Shown here piece by piece: positions 3,471-13,881 of a stretch of 13,881 nucleotides of DNA. Numbering within the stretch: position 1 is the stretch's first letter; the number at the start of each line of letters is the position of its first letter. The stretch comes from Aquisalimonas sp. (GTDB taxonomy: Bacteria > Pseudomonadota > Gammaproteobacteria > Nitrococcales > Aquisalimonadaceae). Position numbers and translations under genes: made by a program. The notes beneath the pieces were generated by a model. It ran no database searches. It was given only the letters and a program-made list of their open reading frames with translations, and had not been told where the DNA came from. Where the stretch lies: NCBI GenBank assembly GCA_007127625.1, contig SKYZ01000467.1:1-13881 (forward strand), given 5' to 3'.

Positions 3471-3506
3471 CGCTGCTTCGCCCCGGTTATCCGGCGCGAA
3501 GCAGCG
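3471..3506 (-). terminator. Hairpin terminator between convergent putA and gap; gap stop codon in its loop
   Basis: CGCTGCTTCG (3471-3480) pairs perfectly with CGAAGCAGCG (3497-3506). The pairing extends by one more C-G, then after one mismatch by CCGG/CCGG around a TTAT loop (3487-3490). The gap stop codon (3487-3489 on the plus strand) is in that loop, so the last gap codons form one arm. On the minus strand the hairpin is followed by TTTCCCTAA, a short weak U tract. On the plus strand no T run follows. It most likely ends the long minus-strand operon and may also stop putA transcripts. Confidence 0.6.
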
Positions 3507-4500
3507 CGGTGGCGGTATCCAGCAACCGGCTGGCGAAGCCCCACTCGTTATCGTACCAGGCGCAGACCTTCACCAGGCCGTCGCCGCCCATGCGGGTCAT
3601 GGACGGGTCGTAGGTGGCGGACACGGTGGTGTGGTTGAAGTCCACCGAAACCAGGTCCTCGTCGGCGACGGCGAGGATGCCCTCGAGCTCGCCCGCAGCA
3701 GCGTCCCGGAGCATGCGGTCCACCTCGTCGGCGGACGTGGCCCGAGCCGCCCGGAAGGTCAGATCCACCAGCGAGACGTTGATGGTGGGCACGCGCACGG
3801 CGAAGCCGTCCAGGCGGCCCGCCAGCTCCGGCAGCACCTTGCCCACCGCGGCGGCGGCACCGGTGCGGGTGGGGATCATGGACTGGGTCGCGGAGCGGGC
3901 GCGCCGCGGGTCCTTGTGGTAGACGTCGGTGAGCACCTGGTCGTTGGTGTAGGAGTGCACCGTGGTCATCAGCCCGTGCTCGATGCCGATCTGCCGGTGC
4001 AGCGGCGCGGCCACCGGCGCCAGGCAGTTGGTGGTGCACGAGGCGTTGGAGATCACCGTGTGATCTGCTCTCAGCGTCCGGTGATTGACGCCGTAGACGA
4101 TGGTGGCGTCGACGTCGTCGCCGGCCGGCGCGGAAATCACCACCTTGCGGGCGCCGGCGTCTAGGTGCGCTTGGGAGCCGGAGCGGCTGGCAAACAGGCC
4201 GGTGCACTCCAGCACGGCATCCACGCCGAGTTCCGCCCAGGGCAGGCGCCCGGGATCCGGCTCCGCCAGCACGCGCACCCGCTGGCGGTCCACCAGCAGA
4301 TCATCGCCGTCCACCCCGACATCGGCGGCGAACCGGCCGTGGACGGTATCGTGCCGCAACAGGTAGGCATTCGTGGCGGCATCACCCAGGTCGTTGATGG
4401 CGACGACTTCCAGGGTCTCGCCGCGCTCCTGCTCGACGATGGCGCGCAGGGCATTCCTGCCGATGCGCCCGAAACCGTTGATGGCAATGCGGTAGGCCAT
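3487..4500 (-). CDS. gap: Type I glyceraldehyde-3-phosphate dehydrogenase
   Basis: The 337-aa product is a full-length cytoplasmic phosphorylating GAPDH, which interconverts glyceraldehyde 3-phosphate and 1,3-bisphosphoglycerate with NAD(P). The Rossmann motif INGFGRIGR is at residues 7-15. Asp37 follows the second strand (AIND), which favours NAD. Catalytic Cys155 lies in SNASCTTNC and His182 in [10 protein letters not shown]. The variants MIPTRTGAA and RVPTINVS resemble the proteobacterial Gap2-like branch. Erythrose-4-phosphate dehydrogenase (Epd) is a less likely relative. GGAGG sits 7 nt before the ATG. The gene lies only 34 nt after livF in the same direction, with no obvious terminator or promoter between, so it is probably the last gene of the sigma-54-driven transporter operon. 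That is an odd place for a central glycolytic gene, so this may be an accessory isozyme. Confidence 0.93.
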
Positions 4501-4534
4501 GGCGTGCCTCCAGAGAGAGTTTCTCGATGACGGG

Positions 4535-5251
4535 TCAGGCCGAGACGCCCAGATACTTGCCCAGCACCTCGTCGTCGGTCATCGCGGCCTTGTCGGTGGC
4601 CTCGTGGACAATGTGCCCCTCGGCCATGAAGTAGGCCCGATCCGCGGCCATGGCCGCGGCCTTGACGTTCTGTTCGATGAGCAGCACCGCCACGCCCCCC
4701 TGGCTGAGATCCCGCAGGCCCTGGGCAACAGTCTCCACCACCGAGGGCGCCAACCCTTCCGTGGGCTCGTCCAGGATCAGGCAGCCGGGATTGGTCACCA
4801 GCGCCCGGCCGATGGCCAGCATGGAGCGCTCGCCGCCGGAGATCTGGTTGCCGAAGGACTTGCGGCGCTGGCCCAGGGACGGGAACAGGTCGTAGACCGC
4901 CTCCACAGTCCACGCCTCCCCGGTGGGGCCGGCGCGCAGGTTCAGGCGCAGGTGCTCGTCCACGGTCAGCGACGGGAACAGGCGCCGCCCCTGGGGCACG
5001 TACCCCACCCCGAGCCGGGCGATGCGATGGGGCGACATGCCCTGGACGTCCGTGCCGAAGACACGGATGGTCCCCGCTGCGCGTGGTGGAGTCAGCCCCA
5101 GGAGCGCCCGCGCCAGGGTGGTCTTGCCAACGCCGTTCCGGCCCATCAGGGCCACGCATTCCCGCCCCACCTGCAGGTGCAGGTCGTGGAGGGCGTGACT
5201 GAGGCCATAGTGGGCGTCGAGACCAGTGACTTCGATGATCGGCTCAGCCAT
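4535..5251 (-). CDS. livF: Branched-chain amino-acid-type ABC transporter, ATP-binding protein LivF
   Basis: This 238-aa cytoplasmic ATPase is one of the two nucleotide-binding subunits powering a HAAT-family importer. Walker A GRNGVGKT is at residues 37-44, the Q-loop [13 protein letters not shown] at 85-97, signature ISGGE at 137-141, Walker B CLILDEP at 157-163, and the LivF-typical LIEQNV at 191-196. The open frame extends 15 codons upstream, but the ATG at 5251 gives the standard N-terminus. It overlaps the 3' end of livG by 8 nt (ATGGCTGA), which indicates translational coupling. The symbol reflects family membership only. The cargo need not be leucine, and the neighbours suggest a different small molecule. 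Confidence 0.92.
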
Positions 5252-12078: not shown

Positions 12079-12092
12079 GGTCTGTTCACACC

Positions 12093-12117
12093 CCCGCGCC
12101 AAGGCGCGCATGGCGGG
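12093..12117. terminator. Weak GC hairpin between the convergent TIM-barrel relative and the regulator
   Basis: The 69-nt gap between the two convergent stops holds CGCGCC-AA-GGCGCG (12095-12108), and alternatively the outer arms CCCGC and GCGGG (12093-12097 and 12113-12117). No T tract follows on either strand. A terminator is expected here, but this candidate is not convincing on its own. Confidence 0.22.
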
Positions 12118-12147
12118 ACCGAGAACCGGCGGTGAGCGACAACGGGT

Positions 12148-13881
12148 TCACAGCAGGTCGTAACGGCGCATCTTGTTATAGAGCGTCTTGCGGGCCAGCC
12201 CGAGTTCCCGCGCGGTGTCACCGCGCCGGAAGCGGTTGCGCTGCAACGCCGCCATGATCCAGTCGCGCTCGCTCATGGGTGCGGGTTCAGCCGCGGCGGC
12301 CGCTCCGGCTGCCCCGCCCGCCATCGCCTGCTCCGCCGGGTTGTCCGGCAGTGGCTCCGACGGCTCCAGCGGCGGCAGATCCCGGGCGGTGACGGCATCG
12401 CCGTCACACATGATCACCGCCCGCTCGATGACGTTGCGCAGTTCGCGCACGTTGCCGGGCCAGGTATGGCGCATCAGCGCCCGGTAGGCGGAGGCATCCA
12501 TCTGTCGCACCCGGGGATTCATTTCGGCAGCGATCTGCGGCAGCAGCTGGCGCACCAGCAGCGGGATATCCTCGATGCGTTCGCGCAGCGGCGGCAGGGT
12601 AATCTCCACCGCATTGAGGCGGTAGAGCAGATCCTCCCGGAAGCTGCCCTCGGCGACCATCCGGCGCAGCGGCTGGTTGCTGGCGCAGAGGATGCGGGCA
12701 TTGGTCCTGCGCGGGGTGTTCGTCCCCAGGCGCTCGAAGGAGCCGTCTTCCAGCACCCGCAGAAGCTTCGCCTGCAGCGGCAGCGCCAGATCGCCGATCT
12801 CGTCCAGCAGCAGGGTGGTGTTGCTGGCCTGCTCGAAGCGCCCGACCCGGGCCTTGACCGCACCGGTGAAGGCGCCGGCCTCGTGGCCGAACAGTTCGCT
12901 CTCCAGCAGGTCACGGGGAATCGCGGCGCAGTTCACCGCCACCATGCGCTGGTCGCGGCGCCGGCTTGCGGCGTGCAGGGCCCGGGCAACCAGCTCCTTG
13001 CCGGTGCCGTTCTCACCGGTAATGAGCACCGAGAGCTCGCTATCGGCGACCTTGCGGATCATCTGCACCACAGAGGCGATGGCAGCCGAACGGCCGATCA
13101 ATCCGAACTCGTGGCCGTCACCCAGCCACTCGCTCTTGAGGCTGTGTATGCGCTGCTGCAGATGGGCGACGGACTTGTAGGCCGAGGTGGTCTCCGCCAC
13201 GGCCGCCTCCAGGGGAATGCGGTCGATGGTGGAGCCGCCGATGTAACCATCCGCCCCCGAGGCCTCGGCCACCTGCTGCGCCTCCTCCGGCGTGGTGATG
13301 GGCCCGCCCTCCACCGCGCACTTGATCCGCGGCCGGCGCCGGCGCACCGCGGCAAACACCTGGCGCGCGTGCTCGCCGGCCTCCTCGAGGCTGTAGCGAC
13401 TGGGCACGCCGGCGACACCGCCGGCATTCCAGCCGTAATTGATGCAGAGGATGTCCACCCCGGCATCGGCCATCATCACCGCTTCATCCTGGCGACGCAC
13501 GTAACCGCAGGTCCCCATGCCCGCGGCACGCGCCCGGCGCATGAGTTCCACTTCGCGACTGAACCCGGCGCCCATGTACTCCAGGTTCTGGCGCATGGCA
13601 CCATCGAAATGCACCGCGGTGGGGAAATTGCAGATCCCGTGGAAGCCCTCCCGGCGGGCTGCGGCGACCAGCGCATCCAGGTCCTCCGAGGGATCGAACA
13701 CGCAGGCGCCGAAATACACGGGCAGATCGACCCGGTCCAGGATCTCCGCGCGGGCAAACGCCTGCACCGCACGATTGTTGCTGGCCACCGGAAGCATGCA
13801 GGAGATGGACGGCGCCCCCATGACGCGCACCCGCCCGGCATGCAGGGCAAGCAGCATGTCCGCACCGCCCTGGGCTGCAGC
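12148..13881 (-). CDS. Sigma-54-dependent transcriptional activator with a PF09370 TIM-barrel sensor domain (5' end outside window)
   Basis: The frame is open to the right edge, so the N-terminus is missing; 577 residues are visible. Counting from the Met at 13857, residues 1 to about 235 are a PF09370-type barrel with NFPTAVHFDGAMRQNLEYMG (78-97), INYGWNAGG (139-147), EGGPITTPEEA (183-193) and GGSTIDRIP (207-215). Homology continues through the residues before that Met, so it is not the true start. The AAA+ domain follows: Walker A GENGTGKE (281-288), GAFTGA for sigma-54 contact (328-333), Walker B LLLDEIGD (349-356), and the WPGNVRELRN block (466-475). An Ala-rich linker leads to a Fis-type helix-turn-helix (about 542-565). 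It should bind upstream of the sigma-54 promoter at 11262-11277 and activate the operon when its barrel binds a ligand. There is no receiver or PAS domain. Confidence 0.93.
   Translation of the reverse strand, partial: AAAQGGADMLLALHAGRVRVMGAPSISCMLPVASNNRAVQAFARAEILDRVDLPVYFGACVFDPSEDLDALVAAARREGFHGICNFPTAVHFDGAMRQNLEYMGAGFSREVELMRRARAAGMGTCGYVRRQDEAVMMADAGVDILCINYGWNAGGVAGVPSRYSLEEAGEHARQVFAAVRRRRPRIKCAVEGGPITTPEEAQQVAEASGADGYIGGSTIDRIPLEAAVAETTSAYKSVAHLQQRIHSLKSEWLGDGHEFGLIGRSAAIASVVQMIRKVADSELSVLITGENGTGKELVARALHAASRRRDQRMVAVNCAAIPRDLLESELFGHEAGAFTGAVKARVGRFEQASNTTLLLDEIGDLALPLQAKLLRVLEDGSFERLGTNTPRRTNARILCASNQPLRRMVAEGSFREDLLYRLNAVEITLPPLRERIEDIPLLVRQLLPQIAAEMNPRVRQMDASAYRALMRHTWPGNVRELRNVIERAVIMCDGDAVTARDLPPLEPSEPLPDNPAEQAMAGGAAGAAAAAEPAPMSERDWIMAALQRNRFRRGDTARELGLARKTLYNKMRRYDLL

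Follow-up and report, generated by a model that had tools for sequence, protein, structure and literature searches.

The DNA analysed here, 13,881 nucleotides from Aquisalimonas sp. (contig SKYZ01000467.1; hereafter the window), is an entire contig (C82) of an incomplete source genome (G000, 83% complete). On its reverse strand lies an operon that combines homologues of the two halves of plant Tm-1 with a HAAT-family ABC importer, and upstream of it are the gene of a sigma-54 activator, which we call REG, and a gene, PEPHs, that points towards REG and away from the operon. We conclude that this is very probably a conserved, regulated uptake-and-conversion operon.

The first gene of the operon (9967–11169, −) encodes a homologue of the N-terminal half of Tm-1, a predicted single-component small-molecule kinase in which both Pfam domains of UPF0261, N and C, score above cut-off (E 2.6e-60 and 7.8e-98). 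It overlaps by 4 nt the gene for a PF09370 TIM-barrel enzyme (9122–9970, −; E 3.9e-129), homologous to the C-terminal half of Tm-1. After 18 nt come a LivH-like (8240–9103, −) and a LivM-like (7293–8252, −) HAAT permease, both of Pfam family BPD_transp_2 and overlapping by 13 nt; then, after 33 nt, a HAAT periplasmic binding protein (Peripla_BP_6; 6009–7259, −) and, after a further 21 nt, a LivG-like ATPase (5244–5987, −). The latter overlaps by 8 nt the gene for a LivF-like ATPase (4535–5251, −, with its ATG at 5251), relatives of which are fused to UPF0261 in other clusters. Finally, 34 nt beyond LivF lies gap (3487–4500, −; Pfam/NCBIfam), encoding a type I glyceraldehyde-3-phosphate dehydrogenase (GAPDH). 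Every gene named in an initial annotation of this DNA matches curated Pfam families above cut-off at its position, and the tight spacing described there, with gaps of at most 34 nt or short overlaps, is as found.

REG (12148–13881, −), whose N-terminus is cut off by the contig edge, consists of a PF09370 sensor, an AAA+ domain (Sigma54_activat) and a Fis-type helix-turn-helix (HTH_8). Its AAA+ domain carries Walker A, GAFTGA and Walker B motifs, as expected of a sigma-54 enhancer-binding protein, and its sensor matches PF09370 as does the operon's own enzyme, bearing out the homology that had been claimed between them. PEPHs (11395–12078, +) is a third PF09370 gene, shortened and diverged (E 1e-12, which exceeds the gathering score). 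The interval separating it from the operon holds a putative sigma-54 (−24/−12) promoter, TGGCACGGGGCATGCA (11277–11262, −), with one mismatch to TGGCACN5TTGCW, and two predicted REG operators: TTACYC-like half-sites at a 10-bp period (11352–11383, +), comprising the two best position weight matrix (PWM) matches of the window, and CTACTCAGGATTGCAC (11333–11354, −), which faces the operon and is the third best. The initial annotation had the operon and the type of regulator right; it overlooked PEPHs and the operator, and its views on gap and on the self-containment of the system do not hold. In the window no RNA families reached the gathering score and no tRNAs were found; a simple scan of 3300–13881 gave no sigma-70-like promoters.

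Conservation of the block and the place of gap

Absence of this neighbourhood from other genomes had been named as the main ground for giving up the operon. When genomes were searched with the window proteins (tblastn), the block, with orthologous transporters, was found again in six genomes, three of Aquisalimonas besides the window's own and three of Billgrantia. G001 carries the complete block including gap, with 78–90% identity for the operon genes, 86% for REG and 53% for PEPHs. The three Billgrantia genomes have the block without gap; REG, UPF0261, PF09370 and the transporter are 72–87% identical and PEPHs about 40% over part of its length. The block is split across two contigs each in G002 and G003. 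Two Ectothiorhodospiraceae metagenome-assembled genomes (L026, L027) keep REG, PEPHs, UPF0261 and PF09370 together with a different HAAT transporter (23–44% identity). In G004 the operon appears to have been lost: a 30-residue LivF remnant adjoins its gap, and its best binding-protein match is 36% identical. That genome has another REG cluster, with a LivF–UPF0261 fusion; at L035 5916–7921 (G004), two open reading frames that we take to be IS66-type transposase genes lie between the binding-protein gene and LivG, and the binding-protein match has an in-frame TAG. Two of the three Billgrantia loci (L028, L030; about 19.3–21.7 kb) contain a second PF09370/SRPBCC/LivM set facing the first block.

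The linkage of the two enzyme genes extends further. In 53 loci, the window included, UPF0261 lies within nine genes of all 55 PF09370 enzyme genes and is directly adjacent to 50 of them; these loci were picked for having PF09370 or UPF0261, and the counts therefore speak only for neighbourhood. (Duplicate loci L024, L025, L037 and L040, on the same contigs as L033, L034, L026 and L027, were dropped, a truncated PF09370 gene in L034 was excluded from the 55, and L076 and L079–L081, chosen for UPF0261, were left out.) HAAT permeases lie near 28 of the 55 genes, sugar-type permeases near 16, BMP-type near 3, SRPBCC genes near 27 and flotillin-like genes near 15. To call the system self-contained, as had been done, is thus too strong, since the pair also occurs with unrelated transporters. 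Few genomes of the class have UPF0261 (13 of 369, own included, 12 above cut-off), whereas within the family it is common (9 of 14); PF09370 occurs in 31 of 397 genomes of the phylum. A published survey (PMC5028733) reported UPF0261 in 491 of 504 bacterial genomes with a PF09370-type domain and suggested an interaction of both.

Other clusters have a different make-up. A second type (L042, L046, L050–L052, L054–L056) contains a solute-binding protein, an AraC-type regulator (Pfam-typed in L052), LivHMG, a LivF–UPF0261 fusion and PF09370, to which are added flotillin, SRPBCC genes, an AAA ATPase and a CO-dehydrogenase-like molybdenum hydroxylase with its large subunit split over two genes. Fusion-type clusters L038, L039, L041 and L074 bear a fumarylacetoacetate-hydrolase-like gene, an alpha/beta hydrolase and an amidohydrolase (typed in L041), and three of them an SRPBCC–zinc alcohol dehydrogenase fusion (typed in L038). 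In L122 (G860, 7125–10402) two different UPF0261 genes flank one enzyme gene. Purine or oxalurate catabolism, considered on account of Azospirillum neighbours (xanthine dehydrogenase-type genes, HpxZ, DUF1116), was set aside; the remaining eight annotated regions showed neither HpxZ nor DUF1116.

The gap gene had been counted as a member of the block. It lies outside the conserved unit and is accessory: it is not beside LivF in the three Billgrantia loci or in G002. Its product scores 415 bits against the TIGR01534 cut-off of 367.2. It follows LivF in the window and in G001, and in G004 it is present without the block. Among the subset of the family's 45 gap matches that was compared, copies at least 83% identical to the window's occurred only in G001 and G004 (95% in the latter); the best in G003 is 74% identical, and the two matches of G002 are weaker, at E 3.8e-44 and 5.1e-43, where the operon copies reach about 1e-58. 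In a comparison of 19 proteins, drawn from 33 candidate sources, the window and G001 copies grouped together with support, separate from all the rest. No terminator-like site is listed between LivF and gap, and gap may therefore be read through. A PutA-like proline utilisation gene (310–3465) is convergent with gap, and this gap–PutA neighbourhood is common to the window and G004.

REG, PEPHs and the promoter region

A PEPHs gene adjoins REG in 17 of 17 loci of a first set and in six of six held-out loci, 23 of 23 in all, being convergent with it in 21 and co-directional in two (L077, L118). The held-out loci came from a search with the sensor against 385 genomes of the class of G408, judged to be Alphaproteobacteria by likeness to the Bradyrhizobium plasmid L020. 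Nine matches had E < 1e-49: three were REG loci already in the set, and the six new ones all had both REG and PEPHs; four weaker matches were examined, and all were enzymes beside UPF0261. Not counted as REG were the PF09370 copy of L062 (G538:C144:5054–5848), a fragment with in-frame stops on a contig that also carries an intact pair, and other sigma-54 activators, in L032 (19261–19899), L078 and L112, that match REG through AAA+. A profile built from 10 of the 17 first-set PEPHs proteins detected the other seven at E 9.5e-71 to 2e-12, while the best open reading frame outside the PF09370 family had E 0.081; some PEPHs miss the Pfam cut-off (the three scanned against it, L071, L117 and L119, reach 28–33 of 33.8 bits).

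Residue comparison suggests that the sensor is an inactive-looking copy of the enzyme, which retains the presumed ligand residues but has its active-site histidines replaced in 22 of 23 proteins. N125, E150, Y167, S258 and E266 are kept in all 23 sensors and R262 in 22; H188 is replaced by Asn in 22 and by Val in one, H231 by Glu in 19 and by Gly in three but retained in one, and Y53 by Leu or Ile in 22, the remaining sequence having a gap there. PEPHs keeps E150 (23/23) and N125 (21/23) and has lost most other conserved polar residues of the enzyme. As judged from substitution rates, it is still under purifying selection: between the window and L033 the ratio of non-synonymous to synonymous substitution rates (dN/dS) is 0.181 for PEPHs, the highest of the genes compared and about 2.6 times the values for REG (0.069) and UPF0261 (0.068). 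Against L032 the PEPHs ratio is 0.50, with dS near 0.8. An anti-phage role found no favour in a scan of four proteins: PADLOC models were matched by REG alone, and mainly in the AAA/HTH part of RtcR-like proteins.

By itself, TGGCACGGGGCATGCA carries no statistical weight: chance alone should give 0.48 such matches in a window, and one was present in 73 of 200 shuffles. It is credible because an equivalent site, with a score of 13.5 or more out of 15.5, precedes the operon in all nine loci whose REG has GAFTGA (window included), as against 2.8% of 5000 random 300-bp segments of the same loci. No site reached 13.5 in any of the 14 loci without GAFTGA (best 8.5–13.0). GAFTGA and the Walker motifs are intact in nine of the 17 first-set REGs (window, L026–L030, L032–L034); the other eight are without GAFTGA, mostly with a degenerate Walker B, and keep the helix-turn-helix, and the six held-out REGs also are without GAFTGA. 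GAFTGA and the sigma-54 promoter therefore covary, both being present in nine loci and neither in 14. The nine are related and all of the window's class, to which three of the 14 (L035, L072, L077) also belong; they are therefore not independent, and the pattern reflects one or a few evolutionary events. The sigma-54 control read from the near-consensus promoter in the initial annotation is supported for this lineage and is not general. REG shares with enhancer-binding proteins of the NtrC, PrpR and XylR kind the AAA+ domain with GAFTGA, the Fis-type helix-turn-helix and the −24/−12 promoter. It differs from them in that its sensor appears to be an inactive copy of the operon enzyme, paired with a second degenerate copy, in that GAFTGA has been lost in 14 of 23 relatives, and in that its predicted operator is a tandem direct repeat.

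This repeat, TTACYC-N4-TTACYC, is the likely REG operator on the evidence of its recurrence. TTACYC half-sites were first noticed in regions upstream of the operons, where 14 regions hold 21 of them, against 0.76 expected from whole loci and a mean of 2.3 (maximum 10) in 1000 shuffles. Regions new to the motif held one half-site in each of two regions of L015, two in L020, one each in L070 and L071, and none in L077; L064, a region already inspected, held two. The six held-out loci contain 15 in 4824 bp versus 1.8 expected, with none in L118. In 1.38 Mb of loci there are nine exact pairs separated by 2–6 bp, of which eight fall in REG clusters and one in the unrelated L031. Genome-wide, 12 exact N4 pairs were found in 11 REG-bearing genomes: seven in REG loci, one about 1.6 kb outside and four elsewhere; the same search gave no such pair in the window's own genome. 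As controls, the reversed pattern occurred five times in these 11 genomes, and two enzyme-only PF09370 genomes had two pairs between them. For 15 of the 17 remaining REG loci, a PWM from seven sites (L064, L070, L114, L116, L117 and two in L119) had its top match in the expected interval, compared with 1.5 ± 1.4 when its columns were shuffled, and in a 16th locus, L071, the two best matches precede other genes of its cluster. In the window the three best positions on both strands are 11362 (+), 11352 (+) and 11333 (−). A palindrome, ACTCGT-N11-ACGAGT (11367–11389), was rejected as operator, being matched in 51 of 200 shuffles at the tolerance used; the tandem repeat recurs instead. Extra operator-like repeats stand ahead of other genes inside the same cluster in L071 (5669, 7733) and L070 (5208), and several REG-controlled promoters are therefore suggested. 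At G001:C11:171535–171601, outside the known locus, two TTACCC pairs in opposite orientation are perhaps a further REG target.

Predicted functions of the enzymes and the importer

The view that neither Tm-1-like protein has an established reaction is outdated for UPF0261. The structure of Saro_1862, a UPF0261 protein of Novosphingobium aromaticivorans (9mpy; E 1.1e-54 with the window protein), was solved with acetovanillone. Novosphingobium MarK (J Biol Chem 301:110606) is reported, as cited in PMC13101465, to be a kinase that starts acetovanillone catabolism. A kinase step is accordingly assigned, with reasonable though incomplete confidence, to the window's UPF0261 by homology. The settings differ: MarK and Saro_1862 belong to Hpe-type acetovanillone catabolism, while the window pairs UPF0261 with PF09370 and a HAAT importer. 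The Hpe and Acv pathways of Rhodococcus GD02 and Sphingobium SYK-6 likewise open with ATP-dependent phosphorylation of the substrate; they differ in using a two-component dikinase of another fold (HpeHI/AcvAB) and in carboxylase genes that the window lacks. In L078 (2807–16493) a UPF0261 gene close to Saro_1862 lies inside an Hpe-like carboxylation cluster, with a biotin-dependent carboxylase and an XylR-type sigma-54 activator, where it seems to replace the two-component kinase. Likeness to a DUF1537-type acid-sugar kinase was seen in none of the 50 fold-comparison matches listed, an absence that proves nothing. The plant Tm-1 or Tm-1-like protein has the same two halves, its UPF0261 half being 45% identical over 389 residues; it is one fused protein, known from tobamovirus resistance work, whereas the window has two overlapping genes and no single chain.

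The PF09370 enzyme matches the full-length profile of its family above cut-off; the family name, phosphoenolpyruvate (PEP) hydrolase-like, states an unproven function. Its closest solved structure is Mll9387 (PDB 2p10), also PF09370 (barrel 66% identical over 238 aligned residues), a structural-genomics entry with a putative function only. The fold-comparison matches listed after 2p10 are mostly IGPS/TrpA-like barrels and designed derivatives, and a placement in the PEP/pyruvate superfamily was dropped. In the literature consulted on UPF0261, PF09370 and such regulators, neither this regulator nor PEPHs is described, and no reaction is given for PF09370.

The transporter subunits fall under the Liv and Urt NCBIfam cut-offs and thus qualify neither as a LivJHMGF importer nor as UrtABCDE: the binding protein scores 100.5 against 492.75 (UrtA) and 56 against 477 (LivJ-type). 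Its nearest solved relatives are a broad HAAT set, some of them presumably Rhodopseudomonas proteins that bind aromatic acids; this likeness suits an aromatic ligand and proves nothing.

A proposed inducible catabolic operon and its rivals

From the gene content, conservation, promoter, repeats, residue exchanges and REG–PEPHs association read in the DNA, we infer a kinase activity, a phosphorylated PF09370 substrate, a sensed ligand, operator binding and a role for PEPHs that would together make an inducible catabolic operon. The HAAT importer would take up a small organic molecule, UPF0261 would phosphorylate it using ATP, and the PF09370 barrel, of IGPS/TrpA-like fold, would act on the phosphorylated product. 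REG may sense the substrate or, more likely, the phospho-intermediate through its inactive-looking barrel copy and bind the tandem TTACYC repeats in the PEPHs–operon interval; in this lineage it would activate sigma-54 RNA polymerase at 11277–11262. PEPHs would tune REG, most likely by hetero-oligomerizing with the sensor or competing for ligand. Taken as a whole, this best explanation has an even chance of being right; we put the phosphorylated substrate of PF09370 and the sensing by REG at about the same level, and a modulating role of PEPHs stands roughly level with these.

Several observations weigh against it. The window's UPF0261 is only about 31% identical to Saro_1862, with a root mean square deviation of 6.2 Å over the whole chain, the identity of Saro_1862 with MarK is itself presumed, and no biotin-dependent carboxylase gene, as in the MarK-type setting, was found among the window's genes. 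UPF0261 has no PF09370 neighbour in L021, L022, L023, L073 and L078, and confidence in the PF09370 model is middling (pLDDT 72.9, 8 sequences). Sugar-type transporters stand beside the same pair elsewhere, which argues against one fixed substrate. Operator scores are modest in the window's clade (3.2–16.5; window 6.7), and the best scores in 29 loci that lack REG fall in an overlapping range (median 4.2, maximum 12.6); no operator could be recognised in L118, and that of L077 is weak. In the first set N76 is conserved in 16 of 17 PEPHs and 15 of 17 sensors; in the held-out loci it survives in only one of six of each.

The strongest rival, to which we give perhaps half the weight of the catabolic reading, is that the UPF0261/PF09370 pair acts as one bifunctional enzyme, like fused plant Tm-1, which salvages, repairs or detoxifies a common metabolite, the varied transporters reflecting many sources. 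The pair is found with HAAT, sugar-type or BMP-type transporters or with none of these, and PMC5028733 reports fusion of the Tm-1 halves in land plants and their co-evolution in bacteria, archaea and fungi; however, import-coupled catabolism is favoured by the LivF–UPF0261 fusions and by the compact operon that holds a single HAAT system, and in L078 UPF0261 stands without PF09370 beside a carboxylase set. It is unlikely that the operon feeds central carbon metabolism, with phosphorylation and an aldol-type cleavage yielding a phospho-aldehyde for the operon's own GAPDH. Such a route would explain gap after LivF in the window and G001, the separate clade of these two copies, gap downstream of another UPF0261 cluster in G004, a gap-like open reading frame after UPF0261 in L075 and a second gap elsewhere in G000; it sits badly with the separation of gap from the block in Billgrantia and G002 and with the weaker matches of G002 and G003.

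Less probable still is an ordinary branched-chain amino-acid or urea importer preceded by unrelated hypothetical genes: Urt and Liv models are indeed the best NCBIfam matches, but the subunits lie below their cut-offs, the broad HAAT set is nearest, and the linkage and fusions are conserved. That PEPHs is a decaying duplicate without a role, as its lost polar residues and high dN/dS might suggest, is most improbable of all, given its place beside REG in every locus, a dN/dS of 0.18 against L033 and the retention of E150 and N125.

Returning to the catabolic operon, a more speculative extension, which we rate below an even chance, is that REG and PEPHs form a two-part receptor of two inactivated enzyme copies that reads the phospho-intermediate made by the UPF0261 kinase, the sensor keeping phosphate-side residues and PEPHs the central part of the barrel. 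The same receptor and operator would have been switched between a sigma-54 and another, probably sigma-70, mode by gain or loss of GAFTGA together with the −24/−12 promoter. Tm-1-like genes of land plants, fungi, archaea and bacteria have no agreed biochemical role; tying the bacterial pair to the phosphorylation of an imported substrate would make that role assayable with two soluble proteins. REG–PEPHs has the look of a regulatory device made from two copies of an enzyme, and the natural series of sigma-54 and non-sigma-54 REG versions, with its predicted operator, may serve as a model for how activators change polymerase.

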